DNA from: a virus
Reading direction: 5' to 3' (one strand)
IMG/VR virus record: IMGVR_UViG_3300034066_001227
Location: 1-22,193 of that record
DNA length: 22,193 nt
The position numbers and the translations under genes were made by a program. Below are positions 1 to 21,173 of the stretch, one piece after another. The notes under the pieces are model-generated. The model was not told the DNA's origin, made no database searches, and saw nothing but the letters and a program-made list of their open reading frames with translations. The stretch's first letter is position 1. Every line of letters begins with the position of its first letter.

Positions 1-1323
1 ATGGATGACATTCTTGGTCAGTTCAGATTATCTGTTACAGAATCGTTAGGAAACTTTAATGAGTTATTCTATTTAGATACACCAATTACTTGTACTCCAT
101 TCTTGGAAAAGTATGATGACTTATTAGGGGGATGGACCGCTGATGTAACAATCAAGGTAATGATTCCTCTTGATAGATGTGATGCGGCATTCAATTCATT
201 CTTAACTCCAACACCGACTACAACTCCAACAAACACACCAAGTAATACTCCAACAGGAACACCTGGTGCTACACCATCACCTACCCCAACAAATACGGAG
301 ACAAGCACCGCAACACCTACTCCAACAAATACAGAAACTCCTACTCAAACTCCTACTCAAACTCCTACAAATACGGAGACAAGTACTCCAACACCTACCC
401 CAACAAATACAGAAACTCCTACCCCTACGATGACTCCTACTCAAACAGGAACAGGAATACCACAAGTAACACCGACTCCAACTCAAACGAACACACCAAG
501 TTCGACACCATTCCCATTACCTGAAACACCAGCGTTATGGTATGATTCAACAAATACAGGAACGGTAGATTTAATTTCATCAGGTGGAACAAATTATGTA
601 TCGGTATGGAGAAGTGCGGGGGTTTATCAAAAAGCACTATCAGGTGCTACAACAGACCAAATGCCAATCTATTCTGGTTCAAGTAGATTCCCGAACAATC
701 CAAATATTGTTAGATTCACTAAAAATAATACAGCAGCATTAAGAGATGTTTTATCACAAAGATTTGACACAACATTTATACCTCAAACAGGATTCACATT
801 CTTTGAGGTTATTGCAAACCCTGTTGGTGGAAACTATGTAAATGGTGGTCCTGCTCAATTCGTATTTCCAGTACAACTTTTTTCAGGAACAACACTCGGT
901 GGATTTGGTTCACCAACTCAATTCGTACAGGCATTCAATATTGGGGCGACAAATAATGGTTTAGTATCCAATACAGTTATAAATGGTGTGGTAACATCAA
1001 ATAATATATTAAACTGGTCAGCACAAAGTTTGGGTGACAAGTATCTATATGTTCAAAGTATTGGATTCCCGAACCAACCATTACCATTTGAATTAAACAA
1101 TAGTGCGTCAACATTAACGACACAAGTAACAGGAACAACAACCGCAGGATTTAATGCAGTTGTAATAGGACAAATTGCAACATCAGGAGGAACATTAAAT
1201 ACAACATTCAACGCTGGTGCTGAAGTCGCTGAAATTATGGTATACAACAGAGTATTGAACTCAACTGAAATAGACCAAGTTCAAAACTACTTGAGAGATA
1301 AATGGAGATACACCCAATGGTAA
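1..1323 (+). CDS. Tail-associated protein with Thr/Pro stalk and C-terminal LamG-like domain (probably 5'-truncated by the window)
   Basis: The reading frame is open from base 1 and gives 440 residues. Residues 1-68 form a small domain containing [14 protein letters not shown] and a Cys near residue 60; I associate this with the C-terminal part of a tail protein of Bacteroidota phages, so the true start is probably upstream. Residues 69-176 are an almost pure Thr/Pro/Asn/Gln/Glu stalk. Residues 177-440 form a LamG/concanavalin-like domain: it opens with ALWYDS, has a VWRS motif, and ends with VYNRVL, a YLRDKW helix and a terminal Trp. The same domain recurs in the genes at 7166 and 15588. The likely role is a virion-displayed adhesin binding sugars or the host surface, which is inferred from fold type only. 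It ends 6 nt before the next gene. Confidence 0.7.
205..528 (+). repeat. Thr/Pro-coding low-complexity stalk, first copy
   Basis: These 108 codons encode mostly [10 protein letters not shown] and TPTP units. An imperfect DNA duplication of about 55 bp is visible: the segment starting AAATACGGAGACAAG at 291 returns at 369, 78 bp further on, with few changes. The + strand of the tract is A/C-rich and poor in G. It links the N-terminal virion domain to the LamG-like domain. Confidence 0.85.
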
Positions 1324-7165: not shown

Positions 7166-8644
7166 ATGAGTTGTAATTTTTATGTCCACAATGACTCCGC
7201 AGGGGGTAGCAAATATATTTCAGGTACAACTTGTAGTGGTACTGTAGCATATTATACATTAACACTTGGTCAATCTGTTTGTATGGATGACGATAAACCC
7301 TTAATCAATCTAAATGGATTGGTTATATCTGGTTCATGTTTTCCTATAACACCAACCCCATCAACAACTCCTTATGGTTATTGTTATGTATCGGGAGAAA
7401 CTCAAACATTTGGGGTATTCCAATGTCCAAATAATGGTATATTGTATAATGACATTTATGGTAAGTTAGTATTGTACGCAACCATTGAAGGTAATATCGT
7501 ATCATCACATCCTGATTTGTCATTTGTAATAACTAATGGAACAGAGTTTGAAACTATTGTAATTCCTGATGGACAAGAATTTACAGAGTTTGTATATCCA
7601 AGAGTCAATTTCTTTTATACAGAAACTGATTGTCTTCTTGAGACCTTACCTGATTGGGAAGTGTTTACTCCACCAGTGACAAGATGTTTATTCTTTACAC
7701 CGACACCGACTGTCACACCAACGGTTACTCCTACGATGACGCAGACACCTACCAATACCGCATCACAAACGCCTACTAATACTTCAACATCAACACAAAC
7801 GCCTACTAATACTTCAACATCAACACAAACGCCTACTAATACTTCAACATCAACACAAACGCCTACTCCTACAACAACCACAACATTAACACCTACTCCA
7901 AGTGCAACCGCAGGTCCATTTACCCCATCAGGAATAACAGATTTATATTTATGGTTTGATGCAGCAAACAATTCAGATTTTTCATTAAGAGTTGCAGGAG
8001 GTACATCTTTCATTTCTCAATGGAGAGCGAGATATGGTGGACAAGTTGTAAATCAATCAGAAGCCTCATTTCAACCAAGATACACACCAGGTAATTGGGG
8101 ATTACCATACACAGGAGTAAGTTTCACAGATTTAGCAGATTTCCTATCAGGTTCAACTACAACAACAGCAATTCCATCAGGTAATACAACTTTTGTAGTT
8201 GCGAATATTCCAAATGCTGTTGATACTGTATTATTCCAACTTGATACAGATAATGGTGAGGGTGTTTCAAGTTTATATACAACTTGGGACCAGAGATATC
8301 TTGGACCTGATTTTATAATTATTGAAATGAGGAGTGTTTCAGGAGCATCAAACTATGACCCATATAATGTAATTTCAAAATATCCAAAAATGCTTGGTGT
8401 ATCAACAGGAAATACAACAACACAAAACGCAACATTTAATGGGGTGAATGCATTAACAGGTAGAACTATAACTAATGGAACTAATATTGTTGGTGTGAGA
8501 ATGAATACACCTGCGGGAGAAAGAAAAGCCTCTGGTAATATGTCATTATTTGAGGTTATTGTTTATAACAGAGTTTTAAGTAACGCTGAACAACAACAAG
8601 TGATTAACTATCTAAAAACTAAATGGAATTATAATAGTTGGTAA
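7166..8644 (+). CDS. Virion adhesin-like protein: Cys module, beta domain, Thr/Pro stalk, LamG-like domain
   Basis: A 492-residue protein. Residues 3-58 are a small module with four Cys (3, 23, 39, 58) opening CNFYVHNDSAGG, similar to the last module of the preceding protein. A very short PT linker (61-69) follows, then a beta-rich domain (72-174) with Cys at 73, 87, 156 and 174, a Thr/Pro/Ser stalk (178-248) and a LamG/concanavalin-like domain (about 255-492). The last domain opens LYLWFDAANN, has an SQWRARYGG motif and ends VIVYNRVL ... YLKTKW ... W. The start is the ATG just after the TATTTATA box. It probably belongs to the tail tip or fibre set and displays a carbohydrate-binding-type domain; that role is inferred from the fold and the context. 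Confidence 0.65.
   Translation: MSCNFYVHNDSAGGSKYISGTTCSGTVAYYTLTLGQSVCMDDDKPLINLNGLVISGSCFPITPTPSTTPYGYCYVSGETQTFGVFQCPNNGILYNDIYGKLVLYATIEGNIVSSHPDLSFVITNGTEFETIVIPDGQEFTEFVYPRVNFFYTETDCLLETLPDWEVFTPPVTRCLFFTPTPTVTPTVTPTMTQTPTNTASQTPTNTSTSTQTPTNTSTSTQTPTNTSTSTQTPTPTTTTTLTPTPSATAGPFTPSGITDLYLWFDAANNSDFSLRVAGGTSFISQWRARYGGQVVNQSEASFQPRYTPGNWGLPYTGVSFTDLADFLSGSTTTTAIPSGNTTFVVANIPNAVDTVLFQLDTDNGEGVSSLYTTWDQRYLGPDFIIIEMRSVSGASNYDPYNVISKYPKMLGVSTGNTTTQNATFNGVNALTGRTITNGTNIVGVRMNTPAGERKASGNMSLFEVIVYNRVLSNAEQQQVINYLKTKWNYNSW
7697..7909 (+). repeat. Thr/Pro/Ser-coding stalk, second copy
   Basis: A 71-codon low-complexity tract between the Cys/beta domains and the LamG-like domain. It contains the exact 30-bp tandem repeat listed separately. 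The + strand is A/C-rich and G-poor. Confidence 0.85.
7771..7860 (+). repeat. Three perfect 30-bp tandem repeats
   Basis: The 30-bp unit beginning GCCTACTAATACTTCAACAT occurs three times with no mismatch at 7771, 7801 and 7831, plus the first 7 bases of a fourth copy. Each unit encodes ten residues, so copy-number change keeps the frame and only alters stalk length. Perfect identity suggests recent expansion by slippage or unequal recombination. Confidence 0.95.
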
Positions 8645-8951: not shown

Positions 8952-9119
8952 ATGGAAATAAAAATATTTACAGATGGAGAGCCATCGGAGATTAGACCTC
9001 TAACTCCTCCGAAACAGATAAACGAAAATTTGAATGAACTATCAAAGTATTTTCCATTTTTAGTGGACAATATGAAAATGATTTCATTTTTAGAACAATA
9101 CATGAAACATGGCAAATAA
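8952..9119 (+). CDS. Short ORF (55 aa) overlapping the tape measure start
   Basis: ATG at 8952, TAA at 9117-9119, encoding 55 residues that begin MEIKIFTDGEPSEIRPLTPP and end QYMKHGK. It fills the otherwise empty 166-nt interval between the 98-residue gene and the tape measure gene, and overlaps the tape measure start (9109) by 11 nt in another frame. The same 11-nt overlap arrangement occurs between the genes at 11462 and 13119. It lies in the same frame as the gene at 8646, separated by a TAA and three sense codons. The position just before the tape measure gene is where tail-assembly chaperones usually sit, but the protein is short and I recognise no family. Confidence 0.6.
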   Translation: MEIKIFTDGEPSEIRPLTPPKQINENLNELSKYFPFLVDNMKMISFLEQYMKHGK

Positions 9120-11424
9120 GAAAGTCACAGTTGAAGTTGATGTTGATATAGAACTTGAACCATCGTTAAAACAGTTAAGGGAGTTAAAAAAACAACTTAA
9201 GGAAACTGCTGCTGGTTCGGCAGAGTTCAACAAAATATCCAATCAAATTAAGGATGTTGAGGATTCTCTTGAAGAAGCAAAGTTTGGTGCCAAAGGATTA
9301 GTTGACCAATTAGAAATGGCTCCTGGTCCATTAGGTGGAGTGTTCAGAGGACTTCGTTCAATAGAGGTTGCAACCAAGTCATTCGGTGCTGCGTTAAAAG
9401 CGACAGGTATTGGATTGATTGTTGCCCTACTTGGAGGTCTTGTTGCTGCGTTCAGTCAGAACGAAGTTGCAATGAAAAAGTTAGAACCTTTATTCATCGG
9501 ACTACAAAAAATATTAGGTGGTATATTTAGAGCATTTGAACCAGTACTTGACATCTTCGTTGAAATGGTTGAAGCCGTTCTACCTCCACTAACAAAAGGT
9601 ATTGGTATATTCTATTCCGTTTTATTTGGTCTATTTACCCTCATTAAAGATGTGGGTGTTGGAGTTGGTAAGACCCTTAAAGGTATATTCACATTTGATT
9701 GGGATTCTATCACAGAAGGGGTTACACAGATTGCTGGTTCAATCGGAAACGCAGTTAAGGCTGGTGACCAAGCATACGCAAGATTCACTGCTGGTACAAA
9801 GGAGTTAACAAAGACAGAAAAAGAAAATATTGCCGAGAGAAATAAGAATAATGCTGAAGGAGCAAAGAAGGCAGAGGAGTTAAGAAAACAACAACTTGAA
9901 GCATTGAAGGCAGACCTCGATGCGAAGATTGCATTAGAGACAAATTCAGAGAATACTTCAAGAGAAAAACTAAAGGCATTATTAGATGCTCGTTACCAAG
10001 CAGAAATTGCTGATAAGAAATTATCAGACGCACAGAAATTAGTATTACAAGCAGAATACGCAAAGAAACTTGAGGAGGCAATCAACGCTGATGAGGAGAA
10101 GAAAAAGAAGAAAAGAGAGGCAGACCTTGACGCTCAAATTCAACTTGAAATAGACAAAGCAGATACAAGACAGAAAGAGTTAAAGATATTGTTGGATGCA
10201 AGGATGGCTGAAGAGCTTGCGAACCTTGAATTGAGTGAGGCACAGAAAGAAGTTATTAGAGCGAAGTACGCCAAACAACTTGATGATGCATTAAAGGCGG
10301 ATGATGAGAAAAGAAAGAAGGATAGATTAGACGCTCTTCAATTAGAGTTAGACGCGAATAGAAACAACGCAATGGCGTTGATTGACACATACGCAAAACT
10401 ACAACAAGAACTTACCAATAAGACCGCATATTCAGAACAAGAAAGAGCGACATTAAGAAAGACATATTCTGACGCAATATTATCTGCACTTGATACTTCA
10501 TTCCAAGCAGAAGTTGCAATGACTGAAGCGAAGTATGATAATCTTGTGACAATAGATGGGGACTTCAAGAGATTCTCTGATGGTTATTATGCAGATTTAA
10601 GAGACAACTATACCAAGAACGAACAAGCACTAAAAACTGCATTAGAAAAAAGTGTAATCACACAGGATGAATATAACAAGAGAATTGCTCAATCATCCAA
10701 AGCGAGAAGAGAATTAGACAGAGTAGAGAAAGCATCAGCCGTTGAAAAAACAAAATTGATTGGTGATGCATTAGGTCAATTATCAAACATCGTTGGTCAG
10801 GATACAATCGCTGGTAAAGCATTCGCAATCGCAAAGGCAACCATTGATACATACCAGTCAGCAGTTGCAGCTTATAAGTCATTAGCGGGTATTCCAATTA
10901 TTGGTCCTGCGTTAGGTGCCATCGCAGCAGCTGCCGCAGTAGCATCAGGTATTGCAACGGTTAAAAAGATTGTTGCAGTTCAAGTTCCAAACGCACCAGC
11001 AGGAGCGGGACCAGCATTGAGCACAACACCATCAGGACCTGCTGAAAGACCAAGTGTTGTAAATGTTGCGGCATCCCCATCTATCAGAGCTGCTGATGGT
11101 GGATTGATTAGAGGACCAGGTGATGAAAGGTCAGATTCAATTCCTGCAATGTTAAGTGATGGAGAGTTCGTTGTTAATGCTCGTTCAACAAGATTATTCC
11201 AACCAATATTATCAGCAATAAATGCATCAGCAGACATACCAGGATTTGCAATGGGTGGATTGGCATCCAAAAAAGACATGCCAGCAAAAGACAATTCTGA
11301 AGATATTGCGGAGGCAATTGGTAATGTGTTTAGAGACCAACCAATCAGAACTTATGTTACAGCGGGAGAAATTTCAAACGAACAACAATTTGACAGAATA
11401 ATAAAATCTCGTTCTTTAATATAA
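9109..11424 (+). CDS. Tail tape measure protein
   Basis: A 771-residue protein with the expected tape measure architecture. It has a charged helical N-terminus (residues 1-60) and a hydrophobic region with GIGLIVALLGGLVAAF (about 101-115) and GIFYSVLFGLFTLI (about 166-179). A long Lys/Glu/Ala coiled coil (about 235-560) follows, then a second Ala/Gly-rich hydrophobic stretch near 598-620. Near the C-terminus DGGLIRGPGDERSDSIPAML, then LSDGEFVVNA, matches the common tape-measure tail motif. The coiled coil holds 70-residue tandem repeats. In tailed phages this protein sets tail length and leaves with the DNA. At the usual roughly 0.15 nm per residue, 771 residues predict a tail of about 115 nm (inference). 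The start overlaps the 55-residue ORF. Confidence 0.9.
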   Translation: MANKKVTVEVDVDIELEPSLKQLRELKKQLKETAAGSAEFNKISNQIKDVEDSLEEAKFGAKGLVDQLEMAPGPLGGVFRGLRSIEVATKSFGAALKATGIGLIVALLGGLVAAFSQNEVAMKKLEPLFIGLQKILGGIFRAFEPVLDIFVEMVEAVLPPLTKGIGIFYSVLFGLFTLIKDVGVGVGKTLKGIFTFDWDSITEGVTQIAGSIGNAVKAGDQAYARFTAGTKELTKTEKENIAERNKNNAEGAKKAEELRKQQLEALKADLDAKIALETNSENTSREKLKALLDARYQAEIADKKLSDAQKLVLQAEYAKKLEEAINADEEKKKKKREADLDAQIQLEIDKADTRQKELKILLDARMAEELANLELSEAQKEVIRAKYAKQLDDALKADDEKRKKDRLDALQLELDANRNNAMALIDTYAKLQQELTNKTAYSEQERATLRKTYSDAILSALDTSFQAEVAMTEAKYDNLVTIDGDFKRFSDGYYADLRDNYTKNEQALKTALEKSVITQDEYNKRIAQSSKARRELDRVEKASAVEKTKLIGDALGQLSNIVGQDTIAGKAFAIAKATIDTYQSAVAAYKSLAGIPIIGPALGAIAAAAAVASGIATVKKIVAVQVPNAPAGAGPALSTTPSGPAERPSVVNVAASPSIRAADGGLIRGPGDERSDSIPAMLSDGEFVVNARSTRLFQPILSAINASADIPGFAMGGLASKKDMPAKDNSEDIAEAIGNVFRDQPIRTYVTAGEISNEQQFDRIIKSRSLI
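9910..10497 (+). repeat. 70-residue tandem repeats in the tape measure coiled coil
   Basis: Residues 268-337 (9910-10119) and 338-407 (10120-10329) are two copies of exactly 70 residues. They share ADLDA-x-I-x-LE, LLDAR, L-S-x-AQK, A-x-YAK-x-L and a Lys-rich end. A degenerate third copy follows to about residue 463. Seventy residues equal ten heptads, so a unit can be added or lost without breaking coiled-coil phase. Confidence 0.8.
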
Positions 11425-11461: not shown

Positions 11462-13129
11462 ATGAATACAACCAAGATAATTGAGTTATTTATTGATGAC
11501 GATTATGAGGAGGCAGGAATTGAGGCTATTTCTTTAGTTTCAAGACCCGCTCATGATGAGACATGGATGGCATTTAACAGTGAATGTTCATGTGGTTCAC
11601 ACAAAATGGAATCTGAATTAGAAGACCCATATTCACCGTATACTGTTGTTGCAGATGACTTCTGTGATATGAATCCTAAACTTGCTACACTTGGTGAGTC
11701 AGTTGGAGAATTAGAAAAAGACGGATGGGCACTTGTTAGAGTTGAAAAGATTACTCCACAGGTTGTACATAGAATGAATCAACAGAGATTCACATCTGAC
11801 CCCAATGGTGAGTCAGATTTGGACACTGAAAACTTTAGAGTTAGATTCAAATATGTAGGTGCAAGAATAGACAGTAAAACTCGTAGGTTTTGTGCTGATA
11901 TGTTGAGATTCAATAGAGTTTATAGATTTGAAGATATTGATGATTTAACAGATAATATCGCAAATCCAGAATTTGGTTTCTATAATATCTTTTTATGGAG
12001 GGGGTCATTCAACTGTCGTCATACATGGGTTAAATTAATTTATAAGAAAGAAGGTAAAATTATTAATTCAGGTTCATCTGCAAGAGGACTTGAATCAACG
12101 GATTCTCTCAATACATCACAACAACCTGATACAAGAACTGAAGCTACAGAAAAAGCTGCAAGAACAAACAACAAAGGACAAGACCAATGGGAAAGAGGAA
12201 TGCCGAGAACAGGTCCAAACTTATTTGCAGAAGGAAAAGGATTGGAAGATGCATGTTGGGAAGGATATGAGGCAATCGGATTAAAGGACGATGGTAGTCC
12301 TAATTGTGTTCCAATTAAGATGACCGAAGATGACTTCGCAGAATCAATTTCTGACTATCCTGAAGGTGTTAAAGATGCAGCAGCTAAAGCAGTTGCATAC
12401 GCAGAAGAAAACGGATGGGGTTCATGTGGAACTGCTGTTGGTAAAACAAGAGCATCACAACTTGCAAAGGGTGAACCTATTTCAGTTGATACATTAAAAA
12501 GAATGTATTCATACCTATCAAGACATAAGGCTGACTTACAGGTATCAAAATCTTATGAAGATGGATGTGGTAAGTTGATGTATGATAGTTGGGGTGGTGA
12601 AGCAGGATTGACATACGCCGAAAGAAAACTAAAACAATTAGAGAACATGAAAATGGTATTCTCTGTTGTCGATGAAGAAAAGAAAATCATTGTTGGAGCC
12701 GCTATGGTGCCAAACAAGATGATTCATAGATACGATGACTTGGGGAACTTATACTATGTATTCTTCTCAAAGGAATCAATCAAGAAGATGGCTGACAAAT
12801 TCTTGAAAGAAAAAAGAACTGATGAAACTTCAATAGAACACAACGGTTTGAAGTTAGGTTCAAATAAAGTTTATATAACAGAATCGTGGGTTTCAGAAGA
12901 CCCATTATACGATAAATCACATAAGTATGGATTTGAATTACCTGAAGGAACATGGTTTGTTTCTATGAAGGTTAATGACGATAAAGTATGGAAAATGATT
13001 AAAGATAAATCTCTGACAGGATATTCCGTAGAAGGATTATTCGCGGAGAAATCAGTGTTCTCAAAGGAGGACGAACAAATAAACCAAATAACAAAATTAC
13101 TTAAATCAATTAAAGATTATGACAAGTAA
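11462..13129 (+). CDS. XkdF-type head maturation protease with a large multi-domain insert
   Basis: A 555-residue protein. The N-terminus (IIELFIDDD, then AISLVSRPAHDETW, residues 7-35) and the C-terminus (IEHNGLKLGSNKVYITESW near 458-476, LPEGTWFVSMKVNDDKVW near 493-510, LTGYSVEGLF near 518-527) match two parts of the XkdF-like phage serine protease family. His460 and Ser522 are the likely catalytic pair by analogy. Between them lie a MuF/SPP1 gp7-like Cys segment (SKTRRFCADML near 138-148, FNCRHTW near 183-189), a CWEGYEAIGLK...NCVP segment (265-284) and a GWGSC...RMYSYLSRHKADLQ...YDSWGGEAGL segment (318-382) known from other phage head proteins. The likely role is cleaving scaffold and capsid precursors, supported by its position directly before scaffold and capsid genes. 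The insert may supply a minor-head function. Confidence 0.75.
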   Translation: MNTTKIIELFIDDDYEEAGIEAISLVSRPAHDETWMAFNSECSCGSHKMESELEDPYSPYTVVADDFCDMNPKLATLGESVGELEKDGWALVRVEKITPQVVHRMNQQRFTSDPNGESDLDTENFRVRFKYVGARIDSKTRRFCADMLRFNRVYRFEDIDDLTDNIANPEFGFYNIFLWRGSFNCRHTWVKLIYKKEGKIINSGSSARGLESTDSLNTSQQPDTRTEATEKAARTNNKGQDQWERGMPRTGPNLFAEGKGLEDACWEGYEAIGLKDDGSPNCVPIKMTEDDFAESISDYPEGVKDAAAKAVAYAEENGWGSCGTAVGKTRASQLAKGEPISVDTLKRMYSYLSRHKADLQVSKSYEDGCGKLMYDSWGGEAGLTYAERKLKQLENMKMVFSVVDEEKKIIVGAAMVPNKMIHRYDDLGNLYYVFFSKESIKKMADKFLKEKRTDETSIEHNGLKLGSNKVYITESWVSEDPLYDKSHKYGFELPEGTWFVSMKVNDDKVWKMIKDKSLTGYSVEGLFAEKSVFSKEDEQINQITKLLKSIKDYDK

Positions 13130-15544: not shown

Positions 15545-15573
15545 AACATGGGGGGTGAATAACCCCCTGTGTT
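15545..15573 (+). terminator. Strong hairpin after the tail tube gene
   Basis: AACATGGGGGGT (15545-15556) pairs over 12 positions with ACCCCCTGTGTT (15562-15573), including two G-U pairs, around the 5-nt loop GAATA. The sequence just downstream is U-rich (ATATTTATATTTG). It probably terminates or attenuates transcription of the tube gene. The GTG at 15555 lies inside the stem. Confidence 0.65.
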
Positions 15574-15574
15574 A

Positions 15575-15582
15575 TATTTATA
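15575..15582 (+). promoter_or_regulatory. TATTTATA box 5 nt before the ATG at 15588
   Basis: An exact TATTTATA immediately after the hairpin, 5 nt before the ATG. It helps decide the start of the long adhesin gene. The overlapping TATATTTG (15579-15586) also equals the Bacteroidota -7 consensus TAnnTTTG, but it is so close to the ATG that transcription from it would start inside the gene. Confidence 0.5.
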
Positions 15583-15587
15583 TTTGT

Positions 15588-18206
15588 ATGCTGATAATAA
15601 AAACCGCACAGAGAAATTCATTAGTTGTAACTGTTTCACAGAACTCAACCATACCAAACCCAGAGTGGTTATTCTCTTTCACACACATTTTTTCAAAACA
15701 ACAAGTTAGATTTATTCCAACAGATATTTCTGTTTCAAGGAGTAGATATGACGAATTTGAATTTATTGAAGGACAAGGTGCAGGTGAGATTGCCTTCCCG
15801 TTCGAAGGCCAATACAACTACGCAATTTATCAGCAACCAGCAGGTTCAGGTAATCTGAATCCACAACTATCACAAGGAGCAGTTGAATATGGTACAGCAG
15901 TTGTTATTGTAACATCTGCGGATACAACAAATGAATACTATGTTGAGTTTATTTCTAACAACGAATTTAACTCGAACTATATATTTGCACCAAATGAATT
16001 GAATCCTCCAACACCTACTGCAAGTGCTACACCAACAAACACACCAACTCCTACCAATACTCCTACAAACACTGCGACTCAAACACAAACGCCAACCAAT
16101 ACAAGAACACCAGAACCAACAGAATCGGCTACACCAAGTCCGACTCCAACAATGACGCAAACTCCTACCAACACTGCAACTCAAACTCCTACTGCTACAA
16201 CTACATTGACCGCTACTCCTACGGAAACTGCGACATCTACTCCTACTAATACCCCAACAAATACTACTACAAGTACTCCAACAAGTACTCAAACACAAAC
16301 GCCTACAACCACAAGTACTTTAACTGCGACTCCTACTCAAACTGCTACTCAAACACAAACTCCTACAAATACACAAACACAGACGCCAACTAAAACAGCA
16401 ACAAGTACTCCTACTCCAACACAGACCCCTACTAATACCGCTACTCCAACCAATACTACAACTCAAACACAAACTCCAACCAATACTGCGAGTCCAAGTC
16501 CAACAAGAACATCAACACCTACTCCAACTCCTACAACTCCACCATTTGTACCTACTGAATTAACGGATTTATTCCAATGGTTTGATGCGTCAAGTGCTAC
16601 GACTTATTCAACAAGAGTTAGTGGTTCAACAACATTTGTTACATCTTGGAGTGGTATAACAGGAGCAGTTGTTTCTCAAGCCACAACAACATTACAACCA
16701 CAATTAGTACAATTCGCTAATGGATTACCTTATTCAGGTATAACATTCAGTGGAACAGGTATTAATATGAGTGGAGCAACATCGGGAGCAGTTCCATCAG
16801 GAAATACTTTATTCATTGTATCTTATCAACCAAATGAGACAAACTCATTACAATTCTCTGTTGATACAAATAATGGTGAAGGTGTTTCTTCTCAATATAC
16901 AAATGCTGATATTCTTGAAGCGAGAACACCAGGTAGAAAAGTTCAATTTGGTAATTGGACAACAAGAAGCAAATATCCTTATGCATTATTAAGTGTGTCA
17001 GGTAATTCATCATTTGTAAATGGTACATTGAACGATACAGTACCATCAAATACATCAGGTACATTCAGTGCTGGTACAACGATGACTGGTATTAGAATGT
17101 CAGATGTTTCTGCTGATTCTATCGGAACATTATATGAGATTATTCTATACAATAGAGTTCTAACAACAAATGAAAGAACAAGAGTATTAACATACTTGAA
17201 GAACAAATGGAACTATGCTAATTGGACAATAACTCCAACGCCTACTGCTACGGTTACATCAACCCCAACAGGAACACCAGCAGTAACTTCTACACCAACA
17301 CCAAGTGTAACAACAACTCAAACTCAAACACCAAGTAATACTCCTACTCCGAGTGTGACTGCAACATCAACTCCTACTCCGAGTGTGACTGCAACAAGAA
17401 CCGCAACTCCTACACAAACTCCTACTGCGACATTGACACCAAGTCCAACACCAGGATTTAGTCCATCATCAATATCTAATTTACAAACATGGTATGACTC
17501 CGCAGATGCTTCTACATTCACATTAAGAACAGGAACACAAAATGTTGAGAGATGGAATGATAAATCTGCAAATGCTTACTACTTATATCAAACAGGTACA
17601 ACACTACAACCTACATGGTCAGCATCAACACCAGGTTCTGCATGGTCAGGTAAGACACTTGTATACTTTGATGGAACAGATTATTTAGCGAGAACAACAG
17701 GAACATCATTTACAGATTCAGGTTTCACATACTTCTTCGTAGCATTTAACAATAGTTCAAACACAAATGCATTAATATTCAATATGACAGACCAAGCCCC
17801 ACCAGTTAATAGTGGTAAATATAGAGCATATATCGGACCTGGTAGACCTGTACCATTAGAAAATAGAAGTTTGACAATGGGTTCTGATGATTTTGGAATT
17901 AGCTGGTTTTGGTCAACTCCAAGTACTTTGGGAGGTAAAAATGGTTATATACTTGCGGCGAGTAGTGGAACAACATCAGGTTCATTTTCAGGAAATGCAA
18001 ACAACTTAATTTATCAAACATCAAGTTCCGCAGGTTCAGTTCCAAATACTGTAAGTGCAATTTCAGTGGGAGCAAATAATGACGGAGCCGCCAAATTTGT
18101 TGGATATGTTGCCGAGATACTTGTTTATGGTAAACAATTAACACAAATTGAATACAATGATGTAATTAGTTACTTACAATCTAAATGGAACTATAATTCA
18201 TGGTAA
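15588..18206 (+). CDS. Virion protein with two Thr/Pro stalk plus LamG-like modules in tandem
   Basis: 872 residues from the ATG at 15588. I prefer this to the in-frame GTG at 15555, which lies within the hairpin stem, because the ATG follows a TATTTATA box and gives the expected N-terminus [19 protein letters not shown]. Residues 1-139 resemble a stand-alone small virion protein of Bacteroidota phages ([58 protein letters not shown]). Then come a 180-residue Thr/Pro stalk (140-319), LamG-like domain 1 (about 324-546; LFQWFDAS to [11 protein letters not shown]), a second stalk (547-622) and LamG-like domain 2 (about 626-872; LQTWYDSA to [11 protein letters not shown]). It probably decorates the virion and displays binding domains far from the surface; location on tail or head is unresolved. 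Confidence 0.7.
16005..16544 (+). repeat. Long Thr/Pro-coding stalk (180 codons), G-poor tract
   Basis: A 540-bp low-complexity tract of [10 protein letters not shown]-like units, with ACTCCTACAAATAC-like DNA words repeated in slightly different versions. The + strand is A/C-rich with few G. It is the longest stalk of the window and joins the N-terminal virion domain to the first LamG-like domain. Confidence 0.9.
17226..17453 (+). repeat. Thr/Pro-coding stalk between the two LamG-like domains
   Basis: A 76-codon tract. It contains a 30-bp-period repeat: CTCCTACTCCGAGTGTGACT and the next 6 bases occur identically at 17341 and 17371. The same 30-bp period is seen in the stalk at 7771. Confidence 0.85.
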
Positions 18207-18239: not shown

Positions 18240-19430
18240 ATGGAAGAACAAAAAATTAACGAAGATTTATTTAGAGTATTCAGTGGAGTTCAGGCTCGAG
18301 TACCTGTAATTGAAGAACAGCCAGGATATAATAACAGAACGCCATGGGTCTACTATGGAATTGCCAACTTGGCTCCTCAAGAATTAATTCGTTTATACAA
18401 TAGTTCTCCAACCCACCGTGCAGCGATTATGTCAAAGTGGTATGGTGTAAGAGGGGAAGAATTAACATTGAAAGATGGGGACAATTCTCGTCTCATGATG
18501 GCAAATTCATTGGGTGACTCCATCTTCGACATCTGGAATAAGGCTTGTTTGGATTTTATTTTATATGGGTCATTTTCGTTGAATATTGTATACAAAAGAG
18601 ACAGAGATTTAGGTTTTGAAATCTACTCAATGGATACATCAAAATTAAGAGCCGAGAGAAGTGATATTAATGACCATGTAAACAATTATTTTTATTCATC
18701 TGATTGGGCTAATGTTAAGAAATTTCCACCAAGAAAATTACCAGCAATGAATTTTATTGCTGATGAGCCAAGTCAGGTTTTTTATTACACAACTCACACT
18801 CCTGGCGCAGAATATTATAGCTGTCCTACATATTGGGGAGGTGCTACATCAATTGCGACAGAGGTCGAAATATATAACTGGTTTCATTCAAACATTGTGA
18901 ATGGTCTACAACCGTCATTATTTGTTTCGTTAAATTCAGGGATTCCTGCTCCTGAACAAAGACAAGAAATCTACGAAACCTTATCCGCGAAATATGGAGG
19001 AAGCAACAATAGCGGAAAATTAATGCTCACATTTGCCAATACAAAGGAGGAGGCTCCCGAAATAACACCTGTTGGAACGAATGGTTCTGACACAATGTTT
19101 ATTGAATTATCAAAGAAAGTTCAAGAGTCCATCTTGACATCACATCAGATAAGTTCACCTGAATTATTGGGTATTCGTACTCCTGGTGCTTTGGGTACAC
19201 CGAATCATCTTGAAGCACAAGACCATTTCCAACATCTCGTTATAAATCCGATTCAAGAAGAAATAAAAAAAGTGTTCGAGAAATTATTAAGATTGAGAGA
19301 TAATAAACCTGCCGAGATTGAAATTAAACAATTCAAAATGGTTACAGTTCCTGACGCAGCACCGATTGAAACGGTTGATGTAAATAAGGATGTTGCCGTT
19401 GATGAAAATAAAGACGAAACAATAGTATAA
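18240..19430 (+). CDS. Portal protein
   Basis: A 396-residue protein. Visible portal hallmarks are NLAPQELIRLYNSSPTHRA near the N-terminus, an IWNKACLDFILYGSFSLNIV stretch with the following YKRD and a YSMDTSKLRAER motif, then PSQVFYYTTHTPGAEYYSCP and a WFHSNIVNGLQPSLFV helix. The C-terminal SILTSHQISSPELLGIRTPG followed by HFQHLVINPIQEEI matches portals of the PBSX/HK97 type, where it forms the crown/clip region. The portal ring sits at one capsid vertex, is the DNA entry channel and docks terminase and tail. It lies after the capsid and tube genes rather than before the protease, which is unusual. Its stop is followed by the next start after 1 nt (TAATATG). Confidence 0.85.
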   Translation: MEEQKINEDLFRVFSGVQARVPVIEEQPGYNNRTPWVYYGIANLAPQELIRLYNSSPTHRAAIMSKWYGVRGEELTLKDGDNSRLMMANSLGDSIFDIWNKACLDFILYGSFSLNIVYKRDRDLGFEIYSMDTSKLRAERSDINDHVNNYFYSSDWANVKKFPPRKLPAMNFIADEPSQVFYYTTHTPGAEYYSCPTYWGGATSIATEVEIYNWFHSNIVNGLQPSLFVSLNSGIPAPEQRQEIYETLSAKYGGSNNSGKLMLTFANTKEEAPEITPVGTNGSDTMFIELSKKVQESILTSHQISSPELLGIRTPGALGTPNHLEAQDHFQHLVINPIQEEIKKVFEKLLRLRDNKPAEIEIKQFKMVTVPDAAPIETVDVNKDVAVDENKDETIV

Positions 19431-20052: not shown

Positions 20053-20310
20053 ATGAACGAAACTATATTATTATTTTTATCTAATGCGTTGACTGGTATT
20101 GCAGCATGGTTTGTTGGAAAAAGAAAACAACAAGCGGACACAGACAATCAGGTCTTACGCAATCTTGAATTATCAATTAATCTTTATAGAGGGATTATTG
20201 ACGATTTGAAAAAAGAAATTGAATCACTTAATATTAAGGTTCAAGATTTGGAAAAGAAAATCGACGAATTACATAAAGAAAATAAAATCCTAAAATCCAA
20301 AGTTAAGTAA
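20053..20310 (+). CDS. Small protein with one membrane segment and a coiled coil
   Basis: An 85-residue protein. Residues 4-22 (ILLFLSNALTGIAAWFVG) form a single hydrophobic segment followed by KRKQQ. The rest is a charged coiled coil (LKKEIESLNIKVQDLEKKID and onward). This layout is common in small genes of Bacteroidota phages. A spanin-like or holin-accessory role in lysis would fit the topology, but no lysin is seen nearby, so this is speculative. It starts 6 nt after the connector gene, and its TAA shares a base with the next ATG. Confidence 0.7.
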   Translation: MNETILLFLSNALTGIAAWFVGKRKQQADTDNQVLRNLELSINLYRGIIDDLKKEIESLNIKVQDLEKKIDELHKENKILKSKVK

Positions 20311-21173
20311 TGCCAATTCCGTCAAGAGAAAAAAACGAAGATAAGGACCTATTTGTCCAAAGATGTATTTCGTCAATTATAGACGAATACGGACAGGAAC
20401 AAGCTGCTGCGATATGTTATAAGGCAGCTGATGAGAAGATGTCTAAAATGGAAGATAAAGAGGTTTCAGAGGTATTCGTATTAACTCCAAGAAAGAGTGA
20501 GGGTAGAGGAAAATTTTTGCAAAGATGCGCGGCTCATCCAAAGATAAAAGAACAACATGGAGATAGAAAAGAAAGAGCCATCTTCTGTTTAACATCTTTC
20601 AACGAATATTATCGCTGGTGGGTGAAGATGGAAGAGTTTGGTGAAGAAGATACAAAGGGTACAGCACTTGGTGCATGTATCGCAAAAAAGAAAGCACAAG
20701 GAATAGATTATAAACAAGCCTACAGGGAATGTGCATCAAAAGTAGTTGTACCATCAGGTCCAATCGTTTTATCAGAAGACAATTTAATTATTGAACCAGT
20801 TGAGTTTCAAGATTGTCCTCCTGCAACATTAGACATTCCATTAAATATAGAGAACAGACAGAAGTGTATTGACCAAGCCCATTACGGTCCTTTAGACCCC
20901 AATCTTCCAAACGAGGATTATTGGAAAAAGAAAGCAGACCAGTTCAATACAACAACAGATGAAGCAAAGAAAGCTCTCTGTGGTAACTGTTCTTTTTTTA
21001 TTCAGACAAAAGAAATTTTAGATTGTATTGCTCAAGGATTGGGTAATGTGGGTGTTGACCCGTATGATTCAATTCAAGCAGGTGACTTGGGTTATTGTGA
21101 AGCATACGACTTCAAATGTGCTGCAAGTAGAACCTGTGATGCATGGGTTGTTGGTGGTCCAATAACTGAATAA
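20310..21173 (+). CDS. Cys-rich protein with phage minor-head-type motifs
   Basis: A 287-residue protein, start overlapping the previous stop (TAATG). The N-terminus has two related segments, LFVQRCISSII...AAAICYKAA (15-40) and KFLQRCAAHPKIK...ERAIFC (68-93), each a Phe-x-Gln-Arg-Cys followed by a second Cys after about 16-19 residues. The first kind is known at the start of phage head/protease-associated proteins. Further Cys sit at 123, 141, 169 and 186. The C-terminus has CGNCSFF (224-230), Cys239, then GYCEAYDFKCAASRTCDAW (262-279), the pattern of a compact Cys-cluster domain resembling high-potential iron-sulfur-type domains in phage proteins. Metal or Fe-S binding is inferred and would need testing. 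It is the last gene before the 228-bp gap and is probably a minor virion or packaging-related protein. Confidence 0.55.
   Translation: MPIPSREKNEDKDLFVQRCISSIIDEYGQEQAAAICYKAADEKMSKMEDKEVSEVFVLTPRKSEGRGKFLQRCAAHPKIKEQHGDRKERAIFCLTSFNEYYRWWVKMEEFGEEDTKGTALGACIAKKKAQGIDYKQAYRECASKVVVPSGPIVLSEDNLIIEPVEFQDCPPATLDIPLNIENRQKCIDQAHYGPLDPNLPNEDYWKKKADQFNTTTDEAKKALCGNCSFFIQTKEILDCIAQGLGNVGVDPYDSIQAGDLGYCEAYDFKCAASRTCDAWVVGGPITE

Follow-up and report, generated by a model that had tools for sequence, protein, structure and literature searches.

An XkdF-type prohead protease with an internal module array in a virus record of IMG/VR

The 22,193-base stretch of DNA analysed here (the window; IMG/VR virus record IMGVR_UViG_3300034066_001227) encodes a 555-aa head maturation protease of the XkdF type, in which an N-terminal element (NT) is separated from the catalytic core by an internal array composed of a portal C-terminal domain (PCTD), a variable linker and two small modules, CWE and GWG. 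What is new is a prohead protease whose interior holds an exchangeable array of modules, an apparently relocated portal domain among them; no description of such an arrangement was found in the literature searched. Fusions of phage head functions as such are known already, and this is not a new kind of enzyme. A first-pass annotation, made from the sequence, had described an XkdF-type protease split by a large insert of about 350 residues; that observation is confirmed, the distance being about 360 residues and the insert consisting of several modules, and the interpretation attached to it is partly supported.

Architecture of the protease

The open reading frame (ORF) at 11462-13129 on the + strand begins at an ATG and has no internal stops. 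Its sole Pfam match above cut-off is Peptidase_S78_2 (XkdF, PF14550; residues 401-526, E=8e-16, 58.6 bits with a 24-bit cut-off, profile positions 6-121 of 126). Two residues in this region, H460 and S522, are invariant in 33 of 33 family members, and their equivalents H101 and S159 in all 48 compact relatives aligned. The core shares 40% identity over 139 aa with gp01 of Nonlabens phage P12024L. The best structural match of the window core model is T4 gp21 (5jbl; Z 6.2, root-mean-square deviation (rmsd) 2.6, 97 aligned), which is also the best structural neighbour of the compact relative L231 (Z 7.8, rmsd 2.5, 110 aligned); both Z scores are below 8 and are taken as supportive only, with 5jbl standing above the unrelated entries. 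Residues 399-533 are predicted to be a conventional, catalytically plausible prohead protease of the XkdF/S78_2 type. A Foldseek search with the whole 555-aa model gave no known fold at E<=0.001, and no significant sequence relatives were found in the PDB for the 555-aa protein, the portal domain, GWG or the compact alignment.

The first-pass annotation had proposed that an SLVSRPA segment near the N terminus and a C-terminal EHNG/ESW/GTW/GYSVEG block form one protease. All motifs that it named are present, with SLVSRPA at residues 24-30 and the C-terminal block at 459-525, and the compact relatives bear the proposal out. Most of the eighty relatives recruited with the core alignment (more than 70) are compact, with NT followed by the core within 4-8 residues ('MKIIELFIDEEGEFSGIDAISIVEQPAIEENFVALKEEIKVELADVDADKRILMG'; another example is 'MDIVELFIDENDEVSGIEAISVVENPAIEENFIALKNQEFKLAEVDKEKRILMGAALIP'), compared with the gap of about 360 residues in the window protein. 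The layouts of the compact ORFs are NT-core-GWG (36), NT-core (15), NT-core-GWG-CWE (13) and NT-core-GWG-GWG (11), so that GWG and CWE are positioned after the core and not between NT and core. An AlphaFold2 model of L231 (48 alignment rows; mean predicted local distance difference test score (pLDDT) 77.5) has strands at residues 2-7 and 16-23, and NT is strongly conserved, with a ratio of nonsynonymous to synonymous substitution rates (dN/dS) of 0.02-0.10 where measurable. No recognisable N-terminal motif was seen in the distant XkdF/S78_2 proteins of Limnohabitans phage DC31, methanogen virus PhiF3 and Rhizobium phage RHph_Y1_11, and NT is therefore not essential to the S78_2 fold family-wide. 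By sequence comparison, NT belongs with the core in this XkdF clade, not in all XkdF proteins. Covariation between NT and core had an effective number of sequences (Neff) of about 30, and the top pairs probably reflect the split between clades. Another possibility considered was that XkdF is a circularly permuted form of the classic S78 proteases, with NT as the permuted C-terminal strand; the sole hhalign match, of 'ISVVENPA' with 'VSVVSIPA', had a probability of 0.3% and is not significant. In the relative L179 (4243-6456), a tape-measure-like ORF reads through, without a change of frame, into a protease core whose NT is truncated, as either a real fusion or an assembly artefact.

The layout is widespread, which the first-pass annotation had missed: more than 100 further IMG/VR contigs encode the same protein. 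The complete order NT-PCTD-CWE-GWG-core was found in 77 ORFs of a first set and in 106 of a larger set in which some loci are duplicated, counted by six-frame translation with domain hidden Markov models built from the family. With at least 77 ORFs in the complete order, the arrangement is due neither to chance nor to faulty assembly. No cultured phage in a 50,697-record collection encodes a counterpart of the 555-aa protein across 80% of its length. Purifying selection acts on every domain: in comparisons of the window with eight relatives, dN/dS is about 0.02-0.25 for NT, PCTD, GWG and core wherever sites are unsaturated, and similarly low for CWE, barring the comparison with L076, where CWE has been replaced. 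The corresponding values for the linker (residues 213-257) are 0.36-0.68.

A portal-type domain inside the protease

Residues 72-210 match positions 383-525 of the portal family phrog_33693 (E=4e-18), and the domain aligns with the C terminus of the P12024L portal at 32% identity (E=3e-20). All 12 PCTD members examined match phrog_33693, and the invariant columns of the domain alignment give the signature R..Y...R.FC...ED...C.H; in the window protein the FC...NCRH motif is at residues 143-187. On these comparisons, residues 60-212 can be assigned as a homologue of the C-terminal domain of phrog_33693 portals, represented by P12024L and IMG/VR relatives. The distribution of the domain is orderly. 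Among 37 contigs searched, the 28 genomes with a match each have one copy; it lies on the protease ORF in 20 of 20 window-type genomes and on the portal ORF in those compact relatives that have one. Portal lengths are correspondingly bimodal, nearly all full-length family portals that lack PCTD measuring 395-417 aa from stop to stop and complete ones with PCTD 550-691 aa. The domain has two alternative homes, portal or protease, and is always single copy where present, and the simplest reading of this sequence pattern is that a portal domain was relocated into the protease.

The first-pass annotation had labelled the Cys/CRH segment MuF-like, which the profile searches do not uphold. PF04233 (MuF) had no match at E<=10 across 16 genomes, although control genomes did match; none of the 12 PCTD members matched it in a Pfam scan; and hhalign of the PCTD profile with MuF proteins gave a probability of 0.3%. 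Profile searches of the insert returned two families, phrog_33693 and, for residues 295-394, phrog_2859 (E=2e-17), and no MuF. The proposal that minor-head and protease functions share one polypeptide holds insofar as a portal-type head domain is joined to the protease, and lacks support with respect to MuF identity, which none of these searches upheld for residues 60-212. These residues were modelled only inside the weak model of the 555-aa protein, and the structure searches were dominated by other domains.

Mobile modules and their exchange

CWE is a 35-residue Cys-paired module whose CWEGYE..NCVP segment spans residues 265-283, and GWG, with the segment GWGSC..RMYSYLSRH..WGG at residues 318-379, comprises about 100 residues that are helical at pLDDT 84-97 in the L231 model. 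No Pfam family exists for either. CWE is also found in portals (L178, HRTV-28), in T4-like cyanophages and, in L098/L099, at the C terminus of a second head-region gene, the proteases there being without CWE. Homologues of GWG occur in the HGTV-1 prohead protease, the HRTV-28 and HRTV-4 portal polyproteins, Vibrio 'coil containing' proteins, Roseobacter and Synechococcus capsid polyproteins, and solo proteins of 102-129 aa. In structure searches, the GWG-bearing query is paired with viral proteins named HAD-like, zeta toxin, ParB/sulfiredoxin and Dps. CWE and GWG are mobile modules, which viruses of archaea, cyanobacteria, Vibrio and Roseobacter also carry in their head proteins. The first-pass annotation had listed both segments as head motifs; they are indeed present, and it missed that both are widespread and mobile.

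Several related arrangements were seen alongside. The window encodes at 20310-21173 a 287-aa protein with two cysteine segments ('RC...AAICY / RC...AIFC'), and it is the relatives of this protein in L098/L099 that terminate in CWE. In one gene of Roseobacter phage CRP-811 (L121, 2923-5373), GWG and a TUDOR-like domain are combined with an S78 protease and the capsid protein, and the capsid genes of CRP-821/822/823/831 (hits H130-H133) contain both GWG and DUF5824. A cysteine segment, 'DF.ACV...LCGWM / DECV...CAWL', recurs in the archaeal virus head proteins of HCTV-2 (L111, 3869-5470) and HRTV-28 (L115). The HCTV-2 prohead protease, collinear with residues 320-532 by tblastn, was rejected as a match to the array, its translation being without the GWG module.

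Exchange of modules is evident within the family. GWG identity to the window is bimodal, either 72-100% or about 41-43%, and the core identities of both groups overlap (71-82%); distant GWG alleles have therefore replaced one another. Placed on a tree of NT, PCTD and core, the GWG allele changed at least five times; the presence or absence of CWE switched 8 times, and extra modules changed 11 times. Insertions in the linker, with a junction at about residue 255, were seen in L059, L065, L072, L076, L079 and others. One inserted module is DUF5824 (Pfam), whose copies are 89-96% identical across clades, the cores of most pairs being 68-83% identical. The extra piece in L059 is HAD-like by motif, without Pfam support, and had no match in cultured phages. 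DUF3721 has been added in L156 and, weakly, in L160, and the distant members L153 and L156 have the order GWG-CWE rather than CWE-GWG. Between the window and L059, the difference at synonymous sites is 17% in NT and GWG and 46-47% in PCTD and core, a contrast in the sequences that marks recombination within this gene. No paper naming DUF5824, DUF3721 or DUF5856 was found in the literature searched.

In L059 (2159-4090), near-identical TTGGTGAAAAA direct repeats flank the HAD-like module when the locus is compared with the window, where this site is empty. In the cultured Salinibacter phage 5_7 (gene 33; L329, 2092-4611), DUF5824 lies N-terminal to a prohead-protease-like region of classic order.

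Natural splits of the gene occur at module boundaries. In L154 the gene is split after PCTD by a TAATG stop-restart; a simple frameshift error was ruled out here, since the downstream frame also stops just before the restart ATG. In L164 the split follows GWG, and a DUF5856 ORF (9188-9558) is inserted ahead of a core that has its own ATG.

The surrounding gene block runs from tail to head, with a tape measure gene at 9109-11424 followed by the protease, scaffold, capsid and portal genes, as assigned from ORFs, Pfam and PHROGs (Table 1). The probable scaffold weakly resembles the C-terminal portion of gp01 of P12024L, a protein in which this portion is joined to a compact protease. Elsewhere in the window (1-1323, 7166-8644 and 15555-18206), there are long proteins in which extended Pro-Thr repeats precede a recurring domain at the C terminus; this domain ends '..NYLKTKWNYNSW', and an 883-aa protein has two copies of it. 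The phage lineage probably belongs with hosts among the Bacteroidota; a genome scan for the host yielded nothing beyond a contig of a Psychroflexus metagenome-assembled genome (MAG) that matched at 36% and a single GWG match, from a WOR-3 MAG.

Table 1 Positions of the protease, its parts and neighbouring head genes in the window
Feature	Position	Strand	Basis
XkdF (Peptidase_S78_2) head maturation protease with internal module array, 555 aa	11462..13129	+	Pfam, PHROGs, IMG/VR relatives
NT, residues 1-40, SLVSRPA motif, two beta strands in compact relative's model	11462..11581	+	Same element adjoins core in compact relatives
PCTD, residues 60-212, FC...NCRH	11639..12097	+	phrog_33693, P12024L portal similarity, single copy
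Variable linker, residues 213-257; extra modules in relatives (DUF5824, HAD-like by motif)	12098..12232	+	dN/dS 0.36-0.68; insertions in relatives
CWE module, residues 258-292, CWEGYE..PNCVP	12233..12337	+	Copies in portals, cyanophages, second head-region gene
GWG module, residues 293-394, all-helical	12338..12643	+	phrog_2859, homologues in many viruses
Catalytic core, predicted, residues 399-533	12656..13060	+	Pfam S78_2, invariant columns, T4 gp21 5jbl similarity
H460	12839-12841	+	Invariant in core alignments
S522	13025-13027	+	Invariant in core alignments
Scaffold, probable, 257 aa	13119..13892	+	phrog_24921 positions 205-337, E=7e-4
Major capsid protein, probable, 333 aa	13921..14922	+	phrog_11320 E=5e-10; phrog_1623 'virion structural protein' E=3e-4; position
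Portal protein, 396 aa, without C-terminal domain of P12024L-type portals	18240..19430	+	phrog_33693 positions 12-341, E=2e-27

Proposed role and comparison with known systems

The reading that we prefer, with a probability of roughly 0.6, is that of an XkdF/S78_2-type prohead protease in which the loop between the NT beta element and the catalytic core became an insertion site in this lineage. The fixed occupant of the loop would be the C-terminal portal domain, moved from the portal gene, and the variable occupants small mobile head-protein modules, namely CWE and GWG, with DUF5824, DUF3721 or the HAD-like piece as further occupants in relatives. The polypeptide may enter the procapsid, where the portal-derived domain would dock the protease at the portal vertex, the same job as when it is carried by the portal; if it keeps this presumed place, the protease and the rest of the string would thereby be brought there. 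The core would then process scaffold and capsid protein, and probably also its own linkers, and the cut modules would stay inside the head as independent parts. Modules could be swapped, moved and separated because the inserted domains would fold independently. Delivery of the insert into the capsid, as put forward in the first-pass annotation, is a plausible, putative outcome.

Several points weigh against this proposal. AlphaFold2 modelled the 555-aa protein poorly (mean pLDDT 60.8), with low confidence at NT; the tree used for counting module changes came from a quick search, and several of its branches are weak; and contigs assembled from metagenomes can be chimaeras. PCTD was undetected in nine compact genomes of the 37 contigs, and since some compact relatives have none detectable, the domain is not universally required. 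The natural splits leave NT on another polypeptide than the core, and NT is therefore either dispensable as a covalent part or acts in trans.

The modules could instead be assembly tags that bind scaffold, portal or packaged DNA and act on the protease, rather than cargo for the head or host cell. The proteins that carry the modules serve mostly in head assembly (protease, scaffold-like, portal, capsid) and the GWG fold is an all-helical domain, which would suit such tags. However, solo GWG genes also have topoisomerase and other genes of DNA metabolism as neighbours (PaBG), or are located away from the head region (S-CBS4, Vibrio 150E35-1), and the names of the structure matches given above are more like those of polyvalent injected proteins (PMC5512222); we regard tags as possible, with the odds against them. 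Rather doubtful is a neutral gene fusion, in which the domains work independently and their union has no consequence besides co-expression. Separate ORFs do arise naturally at two different boundaries, the modules are found solo and in many unrelated hosts, and their order is variable, but the union of NT, PCTD and core is retained in 100+ widely diverged contigs, suggesting selected co-delivery or stoichiometry.

Two further ideas concern what NT might do, and we consider both unlikely. NT could be a detachable docking strand that completes the protease sheet, in cis when compact, across the insert in the window protein and in trans when the gene is split, and that tethers fused partners. Its low dN/dS and the strands in the compact model would fit, as would the retention of NT with PCTD, apart from the core, in L154 and L164; against this, the 555-aa model does not place NT on the core confidently, covariation at the Neff reached is uninformative, several S78_2 proteases are without NT, and the likeness to the classic S78 C-terminal strand is not significant. 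By extension, the protease of this large environmental phage family might be a cargo carrier with its own loading site: NT would be the docking strand, PCTD would position the cargo at the portal vertex, and the protease itself would free the exchangeable modules, which archaeal virus head proteins share, within the head, some perhaps to be ejected with the DNA. A true MuF minor head protein (SPP1 gp7 / Mu gpF family) joined to the protease is more improbable still, for although the FC...NCRH motif resembles MuF C...CRC, PCTD is carried by portals elsewhere as MuF is in HRTV-28 and HRTV-4, and phages of Microbacterium cluster EG do have protease/MuF-like fusions (PMC7302621), the MuF profile is silent in genomes and members alike.

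Among known systems, one close comparison is P12024L gp01. This PF14550 protein shares with the window protein the core, the conserved His and Ser and an N-terminal SLV/SVV..PA element, but is compact with a scaffold-like C-terminal part, whereas the window protein has PCTD and two modules between NT and core, and a scaffold encoded by a separate gene. Conversely, the P12024L-type portal (phrog_33693) bears a C-terminal domain homologous to window residues 60-212, while the window portal ends without PCTD and the protease bears it. In Microbacterium cluster EG, a MuF-like protein is fused to the capsid maturation protease, and portal-MuF and protease-scaffold-capsid fusions are also known (PMC7302621). 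A minor-head-type domain and a protease are likewise found in one gene in cluster EG; in contrast, the window domain is not detectably MuF and lies within the protease, with NT before it and the core after it.

Polyvalent and portal/MuF-linked effector proteins are multi-module, tied to portal or head genes and proposed to be packaged (PMC5512222). The window protein is also multi-module and associated with head genes, but is without a known effector domain: no effector or enzymatic domain of polyvalent type was found in it by Pfam, PHROGs or NCBIfam. Domain mosaicism, in which fragments are gained, lost and swapped between unrelated proteins, has been described for phage proteins (PMC10684548), in a paper whose text, when searched, does not mention proteases or portals. 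Compared with such mosaicism, the window family represents recurrent module exchange at a single site inside a prohead protease, and an enzyme usually regarded as a compact and conserved part of assembly is here a hot spot for sub-gene module exchange. The haloarchaeal polyproteins HRTV-28 gp9, HRTV-4 gp30 and HGTV-1 gp11 (portal-MuF, protease) carry GWG, and HRTV-28 also CWE, with the modules in portals or after the protease. Related modules are present in cultured Salinibacter ruber M8 phages, Roseobacter CRP phages and Vibrio phages, and since GWG and CWE are shared by head proteins of bacterial and archaeal tailed viruses alike, the function of these modules is a general and testable question.
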